NCBI GenBank assembly: GCA_937961455.1
Contig: CALGNN010000071.1
Coordinates: forward strand, 1-39,682
Length of the DNA: 39,682 nucleotides
DNA from: an uncultured Saprospiraceae bacterium
Lineage (GTDB): Bacteria > Bacteroidota > Bacteroidia > Chitinophagales > Saprospiraceae
Direction of reading: 5' to 3'
A program made the translations under genes and the position numbers. Every line of letters begins with the position of its first letter. Positions within the stretch are counted from its first letter, which is position 1. This document shows, piece after piece, positions 20,907-29,688 of the stretch. The notes under the pieces were generated by a model. The model searched no databases, had not been told where the DNA came from, and saw nothing but the letters and a program-made list of their open reading frames with translations.

Positions 20907-21659
20907 TTAAAAATTAAAATTCTCTAAAGCCTCAAAAAGTTGTTCTTTCCTTCTTCTAGAAATGGGTATTTCTGTTTGATCCTTTAAAATAATTCTTACA
21001 CCATCGTTTGCAGCAATGCGCTTAATTGCAGAAAGATTGACCGTATACGATTTGTGCACCCGAAGAAACAAGTTTTGGTTTAGCAATTTCTCTACGCCAG
21101 CTAGTGTTTTGCTTACGATTATTTTCTTAGCAGAATTGGTAAACACATAGGTGTAGTTTGAGTCAGCTTGACAATAGTTAATTTCATTTTGATCTAGGAT
21201 TTCAATCCCTTCCATAGAATGCAAGAGGATTCGCTTTAAGGTGATGGGCTTGTTCATCTCCTTGGTGAGTTCAGATAGTTGTTCAGAACTAAAATGACTG
21301 ATGGCGCCTTTCAATCTGGAGTAAGTAGCGACTAGATCATCTTTATCAACAGGTTTTAAAAGATAGTCCAAGGCCTTAGATTTGAAAGCCCTAATGGCAT
21401 ATTGGTCATATGCTGTAACAAAAATAACTTCAAAATTTATATTGTTGCCCAAACAATCTAACATCTCAAAGCCGTTCATCCAAGGCATTTCAATATCAAG
21501 GAAAACCACATCAGGTTGATGTTCCTTTATAGCCAAAAGTCCAGATTTGGATGAATCACAAGTTGCCTTAATGTCAATATCTGGACAATACATCTTTATC
21601 TTAGTCTCTAAAGCTTGCAATGCGGCTTGTTCGTCATCAATGATAATGGCACTAATCAT
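20907..21659 (-). CDS. LytTR-family response regulator
   Basis: This 250-residue cytosolic transcription factor has a receiver domain (1-125) with acidic pair Asp8-Asp9, phosphoacceptor Asp55 in VVFLDIEMPWMNG, the TAYDQYAIRAFKSKALDYLLKP block with the conserved lysine, and a C-terminal LytTR DNA-binding domain (about 150-245, FLRVHKSYTVNLSAIKRI). The start overlaps the kinase stop by 8 bp (ATGATTAG), so the pair is translationally coupled and almost certainly cognate. LytTR regulators bind direct repeats upstream of targets; no such site could be assigned here. Confidence 0.95.
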   Translation of the reverse strand: MISAIIIDDEQAALQALETKIKMYCPDIDIKATCDSSKSGLLAIKEHQPDVVFLDIEMPWMNGFEMLDCLGNNINFEVIFVTAYDQYAIRAFKSKALDYLLKPVDKDDLVATYSRLKGAISHFSSEQLSELTKEMNKPITLKRILLHSMEGIEILDQNEINYCQADSNYTYVFTNSAKKIIVSKTLAGVEKLLNQNLFLRVHKSYTVNLSAIKRIAANDGVRIILKDQTEIPISRRRKEQLFEALENFNF

Positions 21660-24600
21660 ATTGGTATTGTTTAGGGATTTTAATAATTACTTTCGTTCCA
21701 GCGGATCCTCCGAATGCATCAAGTTTGTCAATGGTTTGAATTGCACCACCCATCCCATAGAGTTCATTGTTAAGACGAATTCTTTCTTCAGTAATTTTCA
21801 TGCCATGGGATTTTTTTAAAGTAGCAGACTTAGTTTTAATCTTTTGAGCTTTTTCCCGTCCGATTCCATTATCGTCTATTTCGAAGTACAAATTATTTTC
21901 ATTCTCCTTGACGTTTATATCTAGTTGTCCTTCATGGGGAGCGTGCATGATTCCATGCCATATGGCGTTTTCAACAAATGGTTGTAAAATCATAGGAGGC
22001 ACATGAACTTCTTCTAGCGAGATTTCTTTTTCAATATCAAATTGGTAATTAAACCGATTACTAAATCTCATTTTTTCTAAATCAACATAAAGCTTAAGTA
22101 GGTTAAGTTCATCCTTAAGACTAATTCTATTTTCTGTAGAATAGTCTAATATTCTTCTGACTAATTTTGAAAATTTTGATAAATATTCCGAAGCTTCTTT
22201 AGGCTTATGATTCAATATATAATTGTCAATTGAATTTAAACTATTAAATAAAAAATGTGGATTCATTTGTGCCCTTAAGGCAACAGCCTCGGATAGTTTA
22301 ATTTTTTGATCTAGTAAGGTTTTCCTTTTGGTTTCTCTGGAGACATACCATGATATTAGATATACAAGAGCTAAAAGCAAGAGTAATGCTATGATTTTAA
22401 ATATGAGGGTTTGCCAAAATGCAGGTATAATTTCAAAGGAAAAATCTGAGCTTTTTTCAATCCAAGCGTTGTGATGGTCCGTTGCCTTCACTCTGAAGGT
22501 GTAGGCTCCTGGTTCTATGTTCGTAAAGCTGGCTATTTGATTATTGCTATTATATACCCACTCTTCTTGAATGGGATCTAATTTATATTGATACTCACTC
22601 TTCTCATTGCTAGGAAAGTCTAATATGGAATAAGAAATTTGAAAGTCCTTTTGATGGTGTTTGAGTTGAATGTCCTGATTGATCGTCAAATTAATATTAC
22701 TAGTATTGGTACCATCTTGAAGAATCATTTCTTCAAATACAATCCTAGCGTTTTGTTCTTTCTTAGCCAAGCTACTTGGGTGAAACCAATTTACACCCTC
22801 AAGTCCCCCAAAGAATAAATTGCCTTGACTGTCTGTGGTAAAAGCTCCTGTATTGAATTCAGAACTGACTAAGCCATTTTTTTTGGTTAAATGCATATTG
22901 ACAATTGGGATTTCTCCTTTCACTAAGTGATCATAATTTAATTGACATATCCCTTTATTCGTGCTGATCCAGAAATTGCCCTTAGCATCTTCAAGGATGG
23001 CATAGACTACATTATTAGGTAGTCCAGATTCTGTATTAAAAACCTTACTCACATGAGTTTTCTCATCATAGGATATCAATCCATACTTTTGAGTCCCCAG
23101 CCACAATTGATCATTCTTTTTAATTAGACACTTAATAGGTCCTGATATGCTATGACCATTGGGCAACTTAATTGGTATTTCTGTGATTTTATCTGAGCTT
23201 ACATCAAGTTTGAAAATAGCCCCGTCTTCAAAGGCGACATAGCTTATCGAATCTGAATCAACAAATACATCTCTGACATTTTTTTTGGTTTGTCCTTCTT
23301 TTCCTTCAAGTGTAATAGCAGTCCATTTTAAAGTTTTTTTATGGAGACTAAAAAGACCTTCGTCCCTGCTCCCAATCCATAATTGATTTTTATTTTTTGA
23401 TTTAATGGTCCAAACAGTTTGTACCGGAATATCAAGTCGACTTGATAATTTATGTTTTTTTGTATCATAATTATACAAGCCTCCCCCTTGAGTCCCAATC
23501 CATAATATTTTATCATTTGGCTCAAAGTACAGACTCACAATGCGGTCTGTGCTAATGTAACTGTTGTCGCTATTGATGTTTATGCTTTTACTGAGGTCAT
23601 GGTCAATCATCGATAAGCCATGCCCTGAGGTACCTACCCATATCCTGTTCTGATCATCAATCGCAATAGATCGCGGAACATCCACAAATACATTTTTCGG
23701 GGTTTGATAATTTGTGATGGTTTTTACAGAATTGAATTCATGGTTAAAAAATGATACTCCGCCACCATCAGTCCCTAACCAAATATCTTGATTACTGTCT
23801 TGGTATAAGCTGAGAATGTCTTTGTAGTTGATGGAGTAAATGTTGGCCGCATCATACTGAAAATGTCTCATTTCATTATTAGCTTGAAGCACGTAAGCTC
23901 CATCTTTAAAGCAAGCAAACCAGATATTTCGTAGATGATCTTCTAACACATCCATGACAATCAAGTCCTTCGGTAAATTATCTATCTTTTCACCTTCAAC
24001 TGAAATCTTAGTACTCTTATAAACTCCTTCACCATAAGAGCAGACCATAAATTGATCATCCCTTGTCGCAAGTATTTTACTTATGGGGATATCTTTATAA
24101 ATATGAAAGTTTCTATCAAGTGCATTTAATTTAGGATCAAATCTTTTCAATCCAGAAGCGGTAGCCAGATAAATGAACTTTTCTTGTTTTTGTAAATGAT
24201 AAATCGACTTGAAATAATCCAGTTTTGTTACTTTCCATTCGTCTTCGAGCTTATCTATTCTATAAAGAAAACCATCATAACTTCCAGCAAAGATCACTGG
24301 GCCATAATCAACCATTGAGCTTATTTGGCTGAGCCCTTCTAGGGTAATGAATTCATCTGTAGATTCTCTATAAAATTTTAGATCTCCTTGGGATGTGCTT
24401 ATCCAAAGTACTTGATCATGGTCGAGAAAAATGAATCCTAATTGAGCGTGATTATTTTTAGTGATATCAATAAAATATTCTTGATAGCTTTGAAAACTTC
24501 TGCCATTGTATTTATTGAGACCATCTTGAGTAGCAAACCACATATATCCATTATGATCCTCTACAATATCAAGTACACTATTTTGAGATAAGCCTTGCTC

Positions 24601-24690
24601 GGTTGTAATATGCTGAAATCTACTATCCTGTGAATTCAAGCTGTTACAAAAACCAATAAGCAAAAACAATAAAGCTGTTATTCTCATCAT
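21652..24690 (-). CDS. Sensor histidine kinase with Reg_prop propellers, Y_Y_Y domain and LytS-type kinase
   Basis: The 1012-residue membrane sensor starts with a signal peptide (about 1-20). Repeated blades with QNSVLDIVEDHNGYMWFATQDGLNKY, DSNQDIWLGTDGGG and NRIWVGTSGHG (about 25-650) make two-component-regulator propellers in the periplasm. A Y_Y_Y domain (about 683-750) and one membrane helix (about 756-783) follow. The cytoplasmic part is a LytS/His_kinase module with the phosphoacceptor His812 in MNPHFLFNSLN and an ATPase domain (about 900-1005, LQPFVENAIWHGI and DDNGIGREKA). Sensors of this build often detect saccharides or their breakdown products. It is not a hybrid kinase; its partner is the overlapping LytTR regulator. 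The gap to the upstream LuxR-type gene is 94 bp. Confidence 0.95.
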   Translation of the reverse strand: MMRITALLFLLIGFCNSLNSQDSRFQHITTEQGLSQNSVLDIVEDHNGYMWFATQDGLNKYNGRSFQSYQEYFIDITKNNHAQLGFIFLDHDQVLWISTSQGDLKFYRESTDEFITLEGLSQISSMVDYGPVIFAGSYDGFLYRIDKLEDEWKVTKLDYFKSIYHLQKQEKFIYLATASGLKRFDPKLNALDRNFHIYKDIPISKILATRDDQFMVCSYGEGVYKSTKISVEGEKIDNLPKDLIVMDVLEDHLRNIWFACFKDGAYVLQANNEMRHFQYDAANIYSINYKDILSLYQDSNQDIWLGTDGGGVSFFNHEFNSVKTITNYQTPKNVFVDVPRSIAIDDQNRIWVGTSGHGLSMIDHDLSKSININSDNSYISTDRIVSLYFEPNDKILWIGTQGGGLYNYDTKKHKLSSRLDIPVQTVWTIKSKNKNQLWIGSRDEGLFSLHKKTLKWTAITLEGKEGQTKKNVRDVFVDSDSISYVAFEDGAIFKLDVSSDKITEIPIKLPNGHSISGPIKCLIKKNDQLWLGTQKYGLISYDEKTHVSKVFNTESGLPNNVVYAILEDAKGNFWISTNKGICQLNYDHLVKGEIPIVNMHLTKKNGLVSSEFNTGAFTTDSQGNLFFGGLEGVNWFHPSSLAKKEQNARIVFEEMILQDGTNTSNINLTINQDIQLKHHQKDFQISYSILDFPSNEKSEYQYKLDPIQEEWVYNSNNQIASFTNIEPGAYTFRVKATDHHNAWIEKSSDFSFEIIPAFWQTLIFKIIALLLLLALVYLISWYVSRETKRKTLLDQKIKLSEAVALRAQMNPHFLFNSLNSIDNYILNHKPKEASEYLSKFSKLVRRILDYSTENRISLKDELNLLKLYVDLEKMRFSNRFNYQFDIEKEISLEEVHVPPMILQPFVENAIWHGIMHAPHEGQLDINVKENENNLYFEIDDNGIGREKAQKIKTKSATLKKSHGMKITEERIRLNNELYGMGGAIQTIDKLDAFGGSAGTKVIIKIPKQYQYD

Positions 24691-24784
24691 CTCAATGAAA
24701 GGATCTTTACAAGAAGATTATTTAATATGCAAAAAGACCACGAGAATATCTATACCTGAACTCAGATTTTCTGTGAATGGTGAA

Positions 24785-25096
24785 TCAGCTTGCTCTTGTT
24801 ATTTTAATTAATTCCAATTCAATACCTCTTCTAACTAGACCGGCAGCATTTGATACCATAAGTTTAGCAAGTAAGTTTTTTCTATGAGTTTTGACAGTAT
24901 CAATACTAATGTATAAACGCTGAGCAATTTCCTTATTGGTATGTTCTTGAGCGATCAAATTGATGATCTCAGATTCTCTCTCTGTTATTTTGCGGTAAAA
25001 TTTAATATTAATGTAAGACATAGACTTTGTTTTTCTTACCATCAAAATAGGATAGATAAAGAGCAAATTCTTTTGGATTTTGCGTGCGAATGACAT
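24785..25096 (-). CDS. Small LuxR-type HTH regulator without receiver domain
   Basis: The 103 residues are almost only a GerE/LuxR helix-turn-helix: ITERESEIINLIAQEHTNKEIAQRLYISIDTVKTHRKNLLAKL (about 37-79). ITERE, the NKEIA turn and VKTHRKNLLAKL are the conserved DNA-binding and dimer segments. No receiver or ligand domain is present. The 5' part (residues 1-25) is not conserved-looking, and the true start may be one of the internal ATGs (MVRK or MSYI), giving a protein of about 78-85 residues. It lies 37 bp after the symporter and 94 bp before the kinase on the same strand, so it may control this array or the kinase pathway. Confidence 0.82.
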   Translation of the reverse strand: MSFARKIQKNLLFIYPILMVRKTKSMSYINIKFYRKITERESEIINLIAQEHTNKEIAQRLYISIDTVKTHRKNLLAKLMVSNAAGLVRRGIELELIKITRAS

Positions 25097-25133
25097 TCTT
25101 ATGTGAATGGTATAAATCTTTGAGTATGCGGTT

Positions 25134-26807
25134 TTACTTCAAAAATTTTAAAATATGAGAAAAGCCAATAACGCCTATTACACCTATTAAATTTAGCCAT
25201 AGATAGGGCAGGATGTCTGCATAATAGATGGCGATTACAATTCCTTCTGTGAGAAGAGCAGCATAAAAAACTGCATTCCCTTTTATTTTCTTGAAATAAA
25301 AAGCCACCAAAAAAATACCTAAAATAGTACCATAGAATATGGACCCAATGATATTCACAAATTGAATAAGATTTTCATGCAAGCTGCCATTTGCGGCAAA
25401 TAGAATGGCAAAAATTCCCCATCCAGCTGTCCAACACTTAGAGATGAAAACATAATGAGAGTCAGATGCATCTGGCACAAAATTTCTTTTATAAATGTCA
25501 ATCGTCGTTGTAGAGGCTAATGCATTTAATTCAGATGCAGTCGAAGACATTGCAGCAAAAAAGATTACAGCAAATAGCAAACCTATCAAACCTTTGGGAA
25601 GATAATTTTGAATAAAATTTAAGAATACATAATCTTTGTCATTGGTTTCTGCTGCTGGATCAATGGAAGAGATTATTTCTTTTGTTGCATTTCTCAGTTC
25701 AAACTCGCGTGTTGAAAGAGCTTGAATTTTTTCGATTTGTGAGTTTATGCTTGCTTCATCTTGATTTCTGCGAGCTTCGATTAAGAGATCATTTTCCTTG
25801 AGTCTTTGATTAAATAAGCCATCGTATTCTTCTTCCAGATTTTCATATGCATCTGCATAGGAAGATTCAGTGACTTTCTCAATTACAGATTGGTTGAAAA
25901 ATAAGGGAGCCTTTGTTGTTTGGAAAAATAAGAAAACGAGCACCCCAATTAATAAAATAAAAAACTGCAAAGGGACTTTGAGTATACCGTTCATGATCAG
26001 GCCGATGCGGCTTTCTGATATGGACTTACCACTTATATATCTTTGTACTTGACTTTGATCTGTACCGAAATAGGAGAGAAATAAAAACAATGCGGCCATG
26101 CTCGACCAGATATTATAGCGCTCATTCCAATCAAAACTTAGATCAACGATATCTAGCTTGTCATTGGCTTTAGCTATGGATAGGCATTCGGATAAACTAT
26201 AGTCTTGAGTTAAATGATTAATTAAAATGAAAAAGATGATAAACAAACCAGTCAGGATGACAATCATCTGATATTTATGCGTAACATGAACTGCATTTGT
26301 GCCTCCGCTTACCGTATAAAGAATAGCAATGAAGCCAATAATAATTGCAGTAAAATTTAAATTCCAACCTAAAACAGACGATAGGATAATGGCAGGTGCA
26401 TAAATGGTAATACCAGCAGCTAATCCCCTTTGCACCAAGAATAAAAGACTTGTTAGTGATCTTGTTTTTAGATCAAACCGCCCTTCTAAAAACTCATATG
26501 CCGTATATACCTTGAGTTTGTAATACAAAGGAATAAAAGTGATACAAATTATAATCATAGCCACAGGCAACATGAAATAGAACTGGGCAAAACCCATCCC
26601 ATCATTGTATGCTTGGCCAGGCGTAGAAAGAAAAGTAATTGCACTCGCCTGTGTTGCCATTACAGATAATCCAACAGTCCACCATTTTGCTTCATTGTTT
26701 CCAAGAAGATAGGCTTCGATATTTTTAGAACCTCTTGTTTTCCATATACCGTAACCGATGATTAACAATATGGTCGATACTAAAACAATCCAATCTATAT
26801 TACTCAT
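25134..26807 (-). CDS. Sodium:solute symporter (SSS family)
   Basis: This 557-residue inner-membrane transporter has about 13 predicted membrane helices. Family marks are the N-terminal SKNIEAYLLGNNEAKWWTVGLSVMATQASAITFL, AYEFLEGRFDLKTRSL, and the sodium-site segment AVIFFAAMSSTASELNALAST (about 413-432). A hydrophilic, charged, coiled-coil-like stretch of about 85 residues (305-390) interrupts the loop before that helix; the usual loop is far shorter. Substrate cannot be read from sequence; the family takes up sugars, sialic acid, amino acids, acetate and more. It starts 6 bp after the 45-residue membrane protein and shares the strand with the PIG-L gene, so a deacetylated product or acetate is a plausible but unproven cargo. 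Confidence 0.93.
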   Translation of the reverse strand: MSNIDWIVLVSTILLIIGYGIWKTRGSKNIEAYLLGNNEAKWWTVGLSVMATQASAITFLSTPGQAYNDGMGFAQFYFMLPVAMIIICITFIPLYYKLKVYTAYEFLEGRFDLKTRSLTSLLFLVQRGLAAGITIYAPAIILSSVLGWNLNFTAIIIGFIAILYTVSGGTNAVHVTHKYQMIVILTGLFIIFFILINHLTQDYSLSECLSIAKANDKLDIVDLSFDWNERYNIWSSMAALFLFLSYFGTDQSQVQRYISGKSISESRIGLIMNGILKVPLQFFILLIGVLVFLFFQTTKAPLFFNQSVIEKVTESSYADAYENLEEEYDGLFNQRLKENDLLIEARRNQDEASINSQIEKIQALSTREFELRNATKEIISSIDPAAETNDKDYVFLNFIQNYLPKGLIGLLFAVIFFAAMSSTASELNALASTTTIDIYKRNFVPDASDSHYVFISKCWTAGWGIFAILFAANGSLHENLIQFVNIIGSIFYGTILGIFLVAFYFKKIKGNAVFYAALLTEGIVIAIYYADILPYLWLNLIGVIGVIGFSHILKFLK

Positions 26808-26813
26808 ACAACT

Positions 26814-26951
26814 TTATATGGATTGAAAGTAAAAATAGATCGTTGCAACAAAAATGATGTTAGCAACGACGCATATCAAATACCAAATATTCCAAGAAGA
26901 AAATAATGGAACCTTGCTGTCTAGTGTGTTTTTAATAGGTTTAGTTTCCAC
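26814..26951 (-). CDS. 45-residue single-span membrane protein between PIG-L and symporter genes
   Basis: A GTG-started frame overlaps the end of the PIG-L gene by 11 bp and stops 6 bp before the symporter ATG. The product begins METKPIKNTLDSKVPLFSSW, continues with aromatic residues (NIWYL) and then one hydrophobic helix (about residues 23-42), ending FYFQSI. The frame uses nearly all of the 133 bp gap, and its overlap and spacing are those of a translated operon gene. Small one- or two-helix proteins encoded next to SSS transporters are known in other subfamilies (YhdT beside PanF, DUF4212 beside acetate-type carriers), so an accessory subunit role is a fair inference. I do not recognise the family. 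No ATG is available; GTG is the only in-frame start upstream. Confidence 0.72.
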   Translation of the reverse strand: METKPIKNTLDSKVPLFSSWNIWYLICVVANIIFVATIYFYFQSI

Positions 26952-29688
26952 CTTTCTTCTTTTTTTTATCTTTTTTAAGGACTTCTTCAATCTTACGTTG
27001 CATCTCTTCTCCTTCTTTTATTACTTCATCGCTTTTCTTAAGAATTTCTTCTGGATTTGTTTTTGCTTTATCTGAACCTTCTGGTTCCTTTTTAATTGGA
27101 ACTTCTCCATTTTCAGACGGATCTACTTTTAATTCTTCTTCAAGTTTCTGTTCAGGCGTGTTTTTAATGGGACTTGGTTCATTTTGGACTTTTTCTTTTG
27201 CAGATAAAGAAACCAAGTTCGCAAAAATTCTGTAGGCTCCTGGAATTCCCGCTGGCAATTGTCTAAACCAACTATAGCCCGTATAAACAAAATATCCTTC
27301 GCCGTATTTACCAACTAACAAGCCACCTTTTCTACTATTTTCTCCAGGATCATTTGAAGCCAAAACTGCATCATACCTTGTGTCCCATTTATCAGCAAAA
27401 TACAATCCACGTTCTTGCACCCAATTTTCAAAATCAGCAGAGCTAATAGTATTAGGTCCTGACAGCACAGGATGATCTTTTTGAAGGAAACTGATTTCGG
27501 CTTCCTCGACAGAGACTCGATCTCTTGAAATATTTAATTCATAAGGACCGATATCATCTACAGCCAATCCTCTGTTAGTATTGTATTGTACAATGTAAGT
27601 TCCTCCATTATTTACATAATTCATCAAGGCCTTTTGGTGGACCTTTAAGCGCTTGTTGGTATTATAGGCTCTGATACCAGCAACAATCGCGTCACATGCT
27701 GAAAGGCCTTCTTCAGTAAAGTCTGCATCTGATAAATATTTAACCTGATATCCCATTTGCATGAGTGATTGAGGAATCGCGTCACCAGCACCTTCAATGT
27801 ATCCAACAAGTTGGCCTCGTTTTTTTAGATTAATTTTGACAAACTTTGACTCAGCCTTTCTCAATACTTTTTGTGTAGGAATATGCTCATAGGATATCTC
27901 TATCAGCTCATGATCATATTTTTTATTGCCAACGACTGCATGTGCTTTTAACTGAATTTCGGATTGATCTTCTGGAGGCCAAACATCAAACTCAAAAACT
28001 TTTTCTTCCCCTCTGAATTTTAGATCAAAGGTCGCATTATCAATATCTGATTTCCAACCATTGCTTCCATCTAACCTTACCATTCCTTTGACTTCGTCGG
28101 TGCCAGCCTTCACCACTACTTGAACTTTTTTAGGTTCGTTATCTGTAAAGATTATGACACGCTCACTAATCTTGGTATACACAGGAGGTAGCACTTCAAA
28201 TGGTTGATAAATTTCTCCCTTTGCAGGATCAGTATATTTGTAGCTAACAGGTATGATGTAATCAAGCTTTTGACCACCAATGGTAAATGTAAAATTTATT
28301 TTTACCGGCCTTGGAGTTTCAGGCTTTCCAATCAATGATTGTTCTTTTACAGAATACATGCCATCTGTTCCTTTGGATTTTAACCAATAAGGAGCTGAGT
28401 AGCCTTCGTTTGCATTGATTTTTACGTTGGTCTTTATTTTGTAATCTTTATTGTTCACCAACTCTTTTTCCAAGGTAGAATCTCTAAATGAAGGAAGTAT
28501 GGTAAAGCTGTTTAGGATTACTTCCAAATTTGATCTGTTGATTACTTCCAAAGTAATGGGCACGTTCTCACCTGGACTCGCTGTATCATTTATAGCATCT
28601 GCTTCGATATAAAGGCCCAAACAGTGTTTGATGATTTCCTTTATCTCTCCAGATTTTATTTTCTTCCAATGCAGATCATCAATCTTTTGAATCATCTGGT
28701 ATGCTTGTATGAGTTTAGGTACAGAGGCTGAGGGATTCTTAAATGAAAATTCATTTTCAATCTGTTTTATCAATGCGCCAATAGGTGCACCATCAGTCAC
28801 TCGGGTCCAAGTTGTATTGATACCTTCAAATGGATCTGACATATCTTCTGGCATGTCTCCTTTCAAAAGTTCTAAGTATTCCATGCTGCTACCTCTGGTC
28901 AAGCTGGCTCCAAATCCCTGACACTTATGCATACTTCGAGACATCGCTGCAATTTCAGAATTTGAAAGACCTAAAGTAGGATAGTAAGAACCAAGATCTA
29001 CTGAAAGTAAATTTGACTTGTCAGCTTCTTTAAACTTCTCTCTACTACCATAAAACCACCATGAAGTATTGAAGAATAATCTTTTGGTAGTCCAAGTATC
29101 TGTTCTTCTTAATTGATCACTGAAGGCTTCTTTTTGTCGTGCAGCATCAAATGCTTTCACTGAAAGGAGTGCACTTGCTGTGTGATGACCATGCGTCTTT
29201 CTTTCTTTATCAGCTTGAAATCTATTAATTATAATATCGGGTTTGAAGTTTCTTATTGTCCATACTAAGTCAGAAAGTACCTCACCTTCATTCCATTTTT
29301 CTAGTGTTTCTTCTGGGTTTTTAGAATATCCGAAATCATTAGCCCTGGAGAAAAATTGCTCTCCACCATCAGTTCTTCTGGCTGCCAGCAATTCCTGTGT
29401 TCTTATGACACCTAAAAGTTCTTTAAGTTCTGGCCCAATGAGATTCTGGCCACCATCACCTCTAGTTAAAGATATATAGGCGGTTCGCACCTTTTTTTCA
29501 TTAGCTAGGTAAGAAATAAATCTTGTGTTTTCATCGTCGGGATGTGCTGCCACATATAAGGCAGTACCAAGAACACTCAATTTTTCAATATCATGAAATA
29601 TCTCAGCAGCATTAGCACGCTTAGATTGACCGTTTGCGATAGAACTTAGGGTGAAAATCAGTATAAAACTTAAAATTAGATTTTTCAT
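26941..29688 (-). CDS. Secreted PIG-L/LmbE deacetylase with glutamine-amidotransferase-like domain
   Basis: The 915-residue protein begins with a signal peptide cut near residue 20 (IANG/Q). The PIG-L domain (about 30-270) carries the zinc motif AHPDDE at 48-53, SLTRGDGGQN and the second metal/active-site segment THGHHTAS. Family members remove N-acetyl groups from GlcNAc-containing molecules. A central beta-rich region (about 370-600) and a class I glutamine-amidotransferase-like domain follow (about 615-830, GYIEGAGDAIPQSLMQMGYQVKYL; no obvious catalytic Cys). The last 85 residues are Pro/Glu/Lys-rich and end in a lysine run. No T9SS signal or lipobox is seen, so it is probably periplasmic. 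It is the first gene of the array that continues with the small membrane protein and symporter. Confidence 0.9.
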   Translation of the reverse strand: MKNLILSFILIFTLSSIANGQSKRANAAEIFHDIEKLSVLGTALYVAAHPDDENTRFISYLANEKKVRTAYISLTRGDGGQNLIGPELKELLGVIRTQELLAARRTDGGEQFFSRANDFGYSKNPEETLEKWNEGEVLSDLVWTIRNFKPDIIINRFQADKERKTHGHHTASALLSVKAFDAARQKEAFSDQLRRTDTWTTKRLFFNTSWWFYGSREKFKEADKSNLLSVDLGSYYPTLGLSNSEIAAMSRSMHKCQGFGASLTRGSSMEYLELLKGDMPEDMSDPFEGINTTWTRVTDGAPIGALIKQIENEFSFKNPSASVPKLIQAYQMIQKIDDLHWKKIKSGEIKEIIKHCLGLYIEADAINDTASPGENVPITLEVINRSNLEVILNSFTILPSFRDSTLEKELVNNKDYKIKTNVKINANEGYSAPYWLKSKGTDGMYSVKEQSLIGKPETPRPVKINFTFTIGGQKLDYIIPVSYKYTDPAKGEIYQPFEVLPPVYTKISERVIIFTDNEPKKVQVVVKAGTDEVKGMVRLDGSNGWKSDIDNATFDLKFRGEEKVFEFDVWPPEDQSEIQLKAHAVVGNKKYDHELIEISYEHIPTQKVLRKAESKFVKINLKKRGQLVGYIEGAGDAIPQSLMQMGYQVKYLSDADFTEEGLSACDAIVAGIRAYNTNKRLKVHQKALMNYVNNGGTYIVQYNTNRGLAVDDIGPYELNISRDRVSVEEAEISFLQKDHPVLSGPNTISSADFENWVQERGLYFADKWDTRYDAVLASNDPGENSRKGGLLVGKYGEGYFVYTGYSWFRQLPAGIPGAYRIFANLVSLSAKEKVQNEPSPIKNTPEQKLEEELKVDPSENGEVPIKKEPEGSDKAKTNPEEILKKSDEVIKEGEEMQRKIEEVLKKDKKKKKGGN

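Follow-up and report, generated by a model that had tools for sequence, protein, structure and literature searches.

A secreted PIG-L deacetylase, a 45-residue membrane protein and a sodium symporter form a conserved gene unit in Bacteroidota beside a candidate regulatory module

Six genes follow one another on the minus strand of contig CALGNN010000071.1 from an uncultured Saprospiraceae bacterium (assembly GCA_937961455.1); the whole stretch of 39,682 nucleotides that was analysed is called the window here. They encode a secreted PIG-L deacetylase, a 45-aa membrane protein, an SSS sodium symporter and three regulatory proteins, namely a LuxR-type helix-turn-helix (HTH) protein, a propeller histidine kinase and a LytTR response regulator. 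A first-pass annotation, made from the letters of the window, had taken all six for one module of sensing, processing and import. Comparison with relatives divides the array: PIG-L, the small protein and SSS are a conserved unit, and the three regulators do not travel along with it. The six genes are the following:

26941-29688, minus strand: secreted PIG-L/LmbE-type deacetylase, 915 aa (Pfam PF02585)
26814-26951, minus strand: 45-aa single-helix membrane protein with a GTG start, from the list of open reading frames (ORFs); candidate SSS partner
25134-26807, minus strand: SSS/SLC5-type sodium symporter, 557 aa (PF00474, TIGR00813)
24785-25096, minus strand: solo LuxR-type HTH protein (PF00196); likely true start 25021 (78 aa)
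21652-24690, minus strand: propeller histidine kinase (Pfam Reg_prop, Y_Y_Y, His_kinase and HATPase_c)
20907-21659, minus strand: response regulator (Pfam Response_reg and LytTR)

The ORF coordinates confirm all six genes at the positions first given and reproduce exactly the claimed spacings of -11, +6, +37, +94 and -8 bp in the order PIG-L to LytTR, and Pfam agrees with the claimed identities of PIG-L, SSS, LuxR-HTH, the kinase and the LytTR regulator. The start of the small ORF overlaps the 3′ end of PIG-L by 11 bp and its stop lies 6 bp before SSS, and the LytTR gene overlaps the kinase gene by 8 bp. Among the matches listed, the closest homolog of the LuxR-HTH protein (73 aa, 57% identical, relative G019) begins at the position matching an internal ATG at 25021. 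The LuxR-HTH gene therefore probably starts there, so that the gap after SSS is 112 bp, not 37.

The first set of relatives comprised 60 genomes, the window's own and 59 others. A PIG-L match was present in 43 and SSS matches in all 60, with close SSS orthologs distinct from paralogs among the matches listed. PIG-L and SSS stand together on one strand in 26 of the 58 loci read around either gene in the relatives. A pattern search finds a candidate small ORF before SSS in 35 of the 40 SSS loci of these first relatives, and inspection of the bases reveals a small hydrophobic ORF with a W...Y core preceding SSS also where SSS is far from PIG-L. A profile built from 35 small proteins (A1) was then run in six frames over 295 genomes of the same class, own genome included; three genomes with hits (G000, G028, G055) had themselves contributed to it. 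At E<=0.01 it gave 128 hits, of which 111 lie directly upstream of an SSS ortholog, eight at the 3′ end of PIG-L and nine elsewhere; eight of these nine are weak (E 0.0028-0.0085) and one, G182:C141:709, is stronger (E 5e-6). The distance from hit end to SSS in the 111 cases is +2 in 36, -1 in 34, and at most 30 bases in 105. The stronger hit in G182 (L137:709-774) is a second, partial small-protein match, about 1.6 kb before the small gene of that genome.

Positions around SSS and PIG-L were counted on the matches listed (147 of 148 SSS genomes and 150 of 159 PIG-L genomes), with at most four SSS, 24 small-protein and three PIG-L candidates scored per genome. Genomes with both large genes offer 144 SSS places on this basis. 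PIG-L lies within 2.5 kb upstream in 106 of them, 88 with a profile hit; the small gene was hit in 21 of the 38 places with no PIG-L nearby, three of these 38 being second SSS copies. The window's own genome has one small-protein profile hit as against 13 SSS matches, which are pieces and not all separate genes.

The same arrangement is found among named genomes, where at least 576 relatives were confirmed and the best 80, which are the closest, were kept (Saprospiraceae, Flavobacterium, Tenacibaculum, Maribacter, Pontibacter, Algoriphagus and others). The nearest named SSS relatives within these best 80 are Saprospiraceae metagenome-assembled genomes. In 79 of the 80, a small ORF lies at most 200 bp before SSS, and the remaining one, L220, looks similar (E 0.31); PIG-L is within 2.5 kb of SSS in 71. 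In other classes of the phylum, SSS was found at E<=1e-70 in 96 of 247 genomes, 41 of which are labelled to the same phylum only. A broader profile (A5), run on 32 of those 41, gave a hit in 22, directly upstream of SSS in 19, and a long PIG-L stands beside SSS with the small gene between them in seven of 12 loci read in other classes. The same profile on 31 same-class genomes that have SSS and lack an A1 hit placed the small gene directly upstream of SSS in nine and elsewhere in one, with no hit in 21. PIG-L, the 45-aa protein and SSS are thus a unit conserved in Bacteroidota, and gene order in relatives bears out that part of the first proposal.

The small ORF is a real gene, because it is conserved in place and in sequence and its ratio of non-synonymous to synonymous differences (pN/pS) comes to 0.205 when read in frame, compared with 1.09 and 1.08 for the two other frames. 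The estimate comes from 236 non-independent pairs of 71 loci over a core of 26 codons with 70-97% identical DNA, and third codon positions hold 2511 of the 4332 differences. The gene is under purifying selection. Its family consists of one hydrophobic stretch in which W20 and Y24 are conserved at 90% or more, across several classes. No match to Pfam or NCBIfam was obtained with the window's small ORF at E<=0.001; the 35 small-protein relatives, scanned singly at E<=1, reached at best E 0.0089 in Pfam and 0.004 in NCBIfam, each for one member only. Since stop and start codons overlap or nearly touch, the ORF might be translated only to link the synthesis of PIG-L and SSS, as a leader whose product has no role. 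We regard this as very improbable, for the amino acids themselves are conserved and selected in frame, and the gene is kept where PIG-L is not upstream.

A second alternative is that the small ORF encodes no symporter subunit; its product would be a free membrane protein and would help either PIG-L or the assembly of both large proteins. Three genomes (G257, G166, G263) speak for it, and to that extent against a symporter partner, in that the small gene stands at the 3′ end of PIG-L and SSS lies elsewhere without a small gene. The other five of the eight PIG-L-side hits are contig breaks: in G342, G281, G130 and G280 the small gene is followed at once by an SSS gene that the contig end truncates, and in G139 the small gene stands at one contig end and SSS at another. 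The 21 small genes that accompany SSS with no PIG-L near, and the single profile hit beside 13 SSS matches in the own genome, also argue against an assistant of PIG-L, which seems quite unlikely. The idea of a possible small symporter subunit, raised in the first-pass annotation, is the most valuable part of that proposal.

The regulators behave differently. Kinase homologs were sought at E<=1e-60, with at most 13 candidates scored per genome, in fragmented drafts whose contigs were compared by eye. They occur in 32 of the 59 relatives (in 26 of the 32 together with PIG-L), and among the matches listed none is on a contig with a PIG-L or SSS ortholog. In the best kinase relative, G019, an ABC permease gene precedes a LuxR-HTH gene that lies directly upstream of the kinase; a second kinase comes after the first, and the stretch read gave no LytTR hit. 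In the next, G033, a LytTR gene that is a 54% homolog of the window's own lies directly downstream of the kinase; this stretch has no LuxR-HTH hit, and the genome has neither a PIG-L nor an SSS ortholog. As neither relative shows all three regulators, they are best described as pairs that recur without PIG-L and SSS. The window has the features of a propeller-sensor LytTR two-component system (Reg_prop/Y_Y_Y, His_kinase and LytTR), and its kinase and LytTR pairing is seen again in G033. We infer that LuxR-HTH, kinase and LytTR form a regulatory module of their own here.

It could still be that all six genes act as one module, in which the propeller kinase senses a signal in the periplasm and controls PIG-L and SSS in this lineage together with LytTR and LuxR-HTH. 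All six are collinear and close, and no terminator-like site was found in 24600-25250, which takes in the gap between SSS and LuxR-HTH; promoter-like sites there are in no excess over shuffles, as judged by a sigma-70 consensus that may not fit Bacteroidota. Eight of ten loci of one clade without the small gene (f29/g73) have other kinase and LytTR genes upstream of PIG-L and in its orientation (L138, L306, L307, L308, L310, L311, L312, L314), a point in favour of such control; so are the regulators that lie near an SSS paralog in L071 and next to the unit in L293. LytTR control of PIG-L and SSS may therefore have arisen more than once. The clade is a single genus by label, and its kinase and LytTR genes are 29-34% identical to the window's over conserved domains. 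Against one module stand the kinase homologs that are unlinked to PIG-L and SSS in relatives, with one of the closest in a genome that has neither ortholog, and the rarity of regulators near the unit: the 58 loci around PIG-L or SSS gave kinase and LytTR hits only in L071 and a LuxR hit only in L094, and the best 80 named loci gave one kinase hit, in L203 (23-25% identical, 5-7 kb away), and no LytTR or LuxR hit. We consider a six-gene module unlikely, and as a conserved unit the six-gene array is rejected. Of the single module first proposed, the deacetylase, small protein and symporter remain together, and the regulators drop out; separation of the kinase pair from the PIG-L and symporter genes in related genomes, which the first-pass annotation had itself named as the first of two observations that would count against it, is what the relatives show.

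SSS passes the cut-offs of PF00474 and TIGR00813, and Foldseek gives an SSS fold for its model, with SiaT, NIS, SGLT2-MAP17 and SMCT1 as the best PDB fold matches. SiaT (5NV9, 5NVA) is the best PDB match both by sequence (E 1e-37) and by fold (TM-score 0.84 on the target). With site residues taken from PMC5931594, the Na2-site serines of transmembrane helix 8 are kept, SiaT Ser342/Ser343 aligning with S421/S422 of the window's SSS. The sialate-binding Arg135 is replaced by A130, the Na3-site Asp182 by H177, and Ser345 by A424. Because these three residues are replaced, there is no sign that the window's SSS is a SiaT ortholog.

PIG-L exceeds the cut-off of its domain clearly (PF02585, 56.3 bits as against 28.2). 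Its layout comprises a signal peptide, recognised by eye, the PIG-L domain, a beta-sandwich middle part and a possible ThuA-like C-terminal domain. H49, D51, D52, H166 and H169 are invariant in 29 of 29 aligned orthologs, H49-P50-D51-D52 reading HPDD, so that the HXD1D2 + H metal motif of the LmbE-like/PIG-L superfamily (as defined in PMC4101496) is present. The AlphaFold model has a mean predicted local distance difference test score (pLDDT) of 85.9. Foldseek matches its catalytic domain to Pyrococcus diacetylchitobiose deacetylase from rank 12 downwards (E about 3e-6) and the model, weakly, to the ThuA-like 1t0b at rank 23; all matches listed are partial, with a TM-score on the query below 0.2, and a PDB sequence search returned nothing at E<=0.01. 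Diacetylchitobiose deacetylase and the LmbE-like superfamily thus share the catalytic-domain fold and the metal motif with the window's PIG-L, which differs in its 915 aa, its signal peptide and its further domains, with 16-20% identity in the fold matches listed. Most of the orthologous matches stop near residue 833; after about that point the window's protein continues in a charged tail of about 80 aa (window 26941-27193).

What the unit imports was approached through 23 loci of other classes, 20 collected for this question and three from earlier. Beside SSS, a short PIG-L with a signal-like N-terminus occurs in five of them and nagB in four (the query source, L272, being counted); the small gene is found in 16 and a long PIG-L in none. 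In L272:5502-7176, L271, L282 and L291, nagB and the short PIG-L stand divergently beside SSS. The L272 nagB product passes the TIGR00502 cut-off, and NF002557 (glucosamine-6-phosphate deaminase-like) scores below its cut-off. The window's genome has nagB elsewhere. In this genome (G000), a nagB gene (G000:C149:38718-39443) and a second PIG-L gene (G000:C11:3003-3524; L303 and L305) each run to a contig end, and the two may belong to one NagB-PIG-L fusion of NF002557 type. Given nagB beside SSS in these loci of other classes and the diacetylchitobiose deacetylase-like fold of the window's PIG-L, an amino-sugar route is plausible for the unit. Alternatively, the unit could take up the acetate freed by the deacetylase. 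SSS resembles SMCT1 and NIS as well as SiaT, and a small companion protein likewise accompanies the SSS acetate symporter ActP (PMC6692424). The nagB genes in four of the 23 loci point instead to glucosamine metabolism, and no acetate gene is among the recurring neighbours identified by Pfam, most neighbour families being without Pfam identity. Acetate uptake thus appears rather improbable.

Small companions of SSS symporters are already known, and what is new is this unnamed, probably dedicated family. Most likely the small protein is a one-helix partner dedicated to an SLC5-type symporter, which would place it alongside MAP17 or YjcH. MAP17 (PDZK1IP1) is a one-helix auxiliary protein of the human SLC5/SSS symporter SGLT2 (SLC5A2), and the fold search with the SSS model returns SGLT2-MAP17 entries by their transporter chain. 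The small protein, a candidate for such a subunit, has one hydrophobic stretch, and its gene is linked to that of one symporter. It differs from MAP17 in being bacterial, of only about 45 aa where MAP17 is longer, and encoded next to its putative symporter partner. The MAP17 helix contacts transmembrane helix 13 of SGLT2 and has been proposed to help in localisation and folding (PMC10803289). A small protein encoded beside an SSS symporter is likewise seen in YjcH/LvaF (DUF485), which accompany ActP-type acetate or organic-acid symporters. DUF485 proteins have two helices, whereas the window's protein has one and goes with another SSS subfamily. The DUF485 protein encoded beside ActP has 72 aa (PMC6692424). 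At E<=1, the 35 small proteins between them match 20 Pfam families, with DUF485 absent from these; HMMER filters can lose weak matches in such a scan. The small transporter regulators listed in the part of PMC10710835 consulted include none of this one-helix kind, and titles and abstract openings of the open-licence literature yielded no description of a deacetylase-small protein-symporter unit.

We therefore consider it probable that two units stand side by side in the window, PIG-L, the one-helix protein and SSS in one and LuxR-HTH, kinase and LytTR next door, and that the small protein is a partner of the symporter. The exported metal-dependent deacetylase would take the N-acetyl group off a GlcNAc-type sugar or glycoconjugate in the periplasm, and the Na+ symporter would bring in what results, in all likelihood an amino sugar. 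The small protein would lie as a single helix against the symporter, with its N-terminus inside, as its charge suggests, and would serve folding, stability or activity, as MAP17 may do for SGLT2. LuxR-HTH, propeller kinase and LytTR would be a neighbouring unit, whose putative action on the PIG-L unit forms no part of this view. More tentatively, at somewhat below an even chance, we propose that one-helix proteins of 35-55 aa, found widely in Bacteroidota, make up an unnamed family of subunits dedicated to one SSS/SLC5 subfamily. This would be a bacterial counterpart of MAP17-SGLT2, acting with a secreted deacetylase in a route by which amino sugars are first deacetylated and then imported.

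Several observations weigh against these views. Five of the 40 SSS loci of the first relatives lack a candidate small ORF by pattern, and in G371, G380 and G392 about 15 kb separate the small gene from SSS. Several clades have SSS and PIG-L and no detectable small gene, f29/g73 above all; A5 did not detect it in any tested genome of f29/g73 and f117, nor in part of f70, f31, f73, f49, f65, f26, f23, f104, f96, f103, f112 and f113. When the small protein and SSS were modelled as a pseudo-fusion read across the stop, with 42 in-frame relatives, the SSS part took an SSS transporter fold at a mean pLDDT of 79.7, and the small helix reached only 52-67 in blocks of ten. The top covarying pairs between the two proteins (137 pairs) are scattered over the symporter, and are therefore read as shared ancestry; covariation was dropped as a contact signal. 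The small gene is not beside SSS in four of the five loci with a short PIG-L, and what the symporter imports is a guess.

Genome annotation easily overlooks proteins of 35-55 residues. If the proposal is true, the unit would explain what the deacetylase-symporter pair that is widespread in Bacteroidota does, and would offer a simple, genetically tractable bacterial system for the role of an auxiliary helix in SLC5-type transporters, which is still argued for SGLT2-MAP17 (PMC10803289).

Among the neighbours of the unit, DUF2911, MscS-like, HAD-like and oxidoreductase genes gave no functional clue. In 62 loci (for example L071:4925-6037) SSS has a member of a gene family represented by DUF2911 downstream of it, 62 of the 63 cases being on the other strand, and a family of genes of about 800 aa (L092:3925-6330) occurs in eight of the compared loci.

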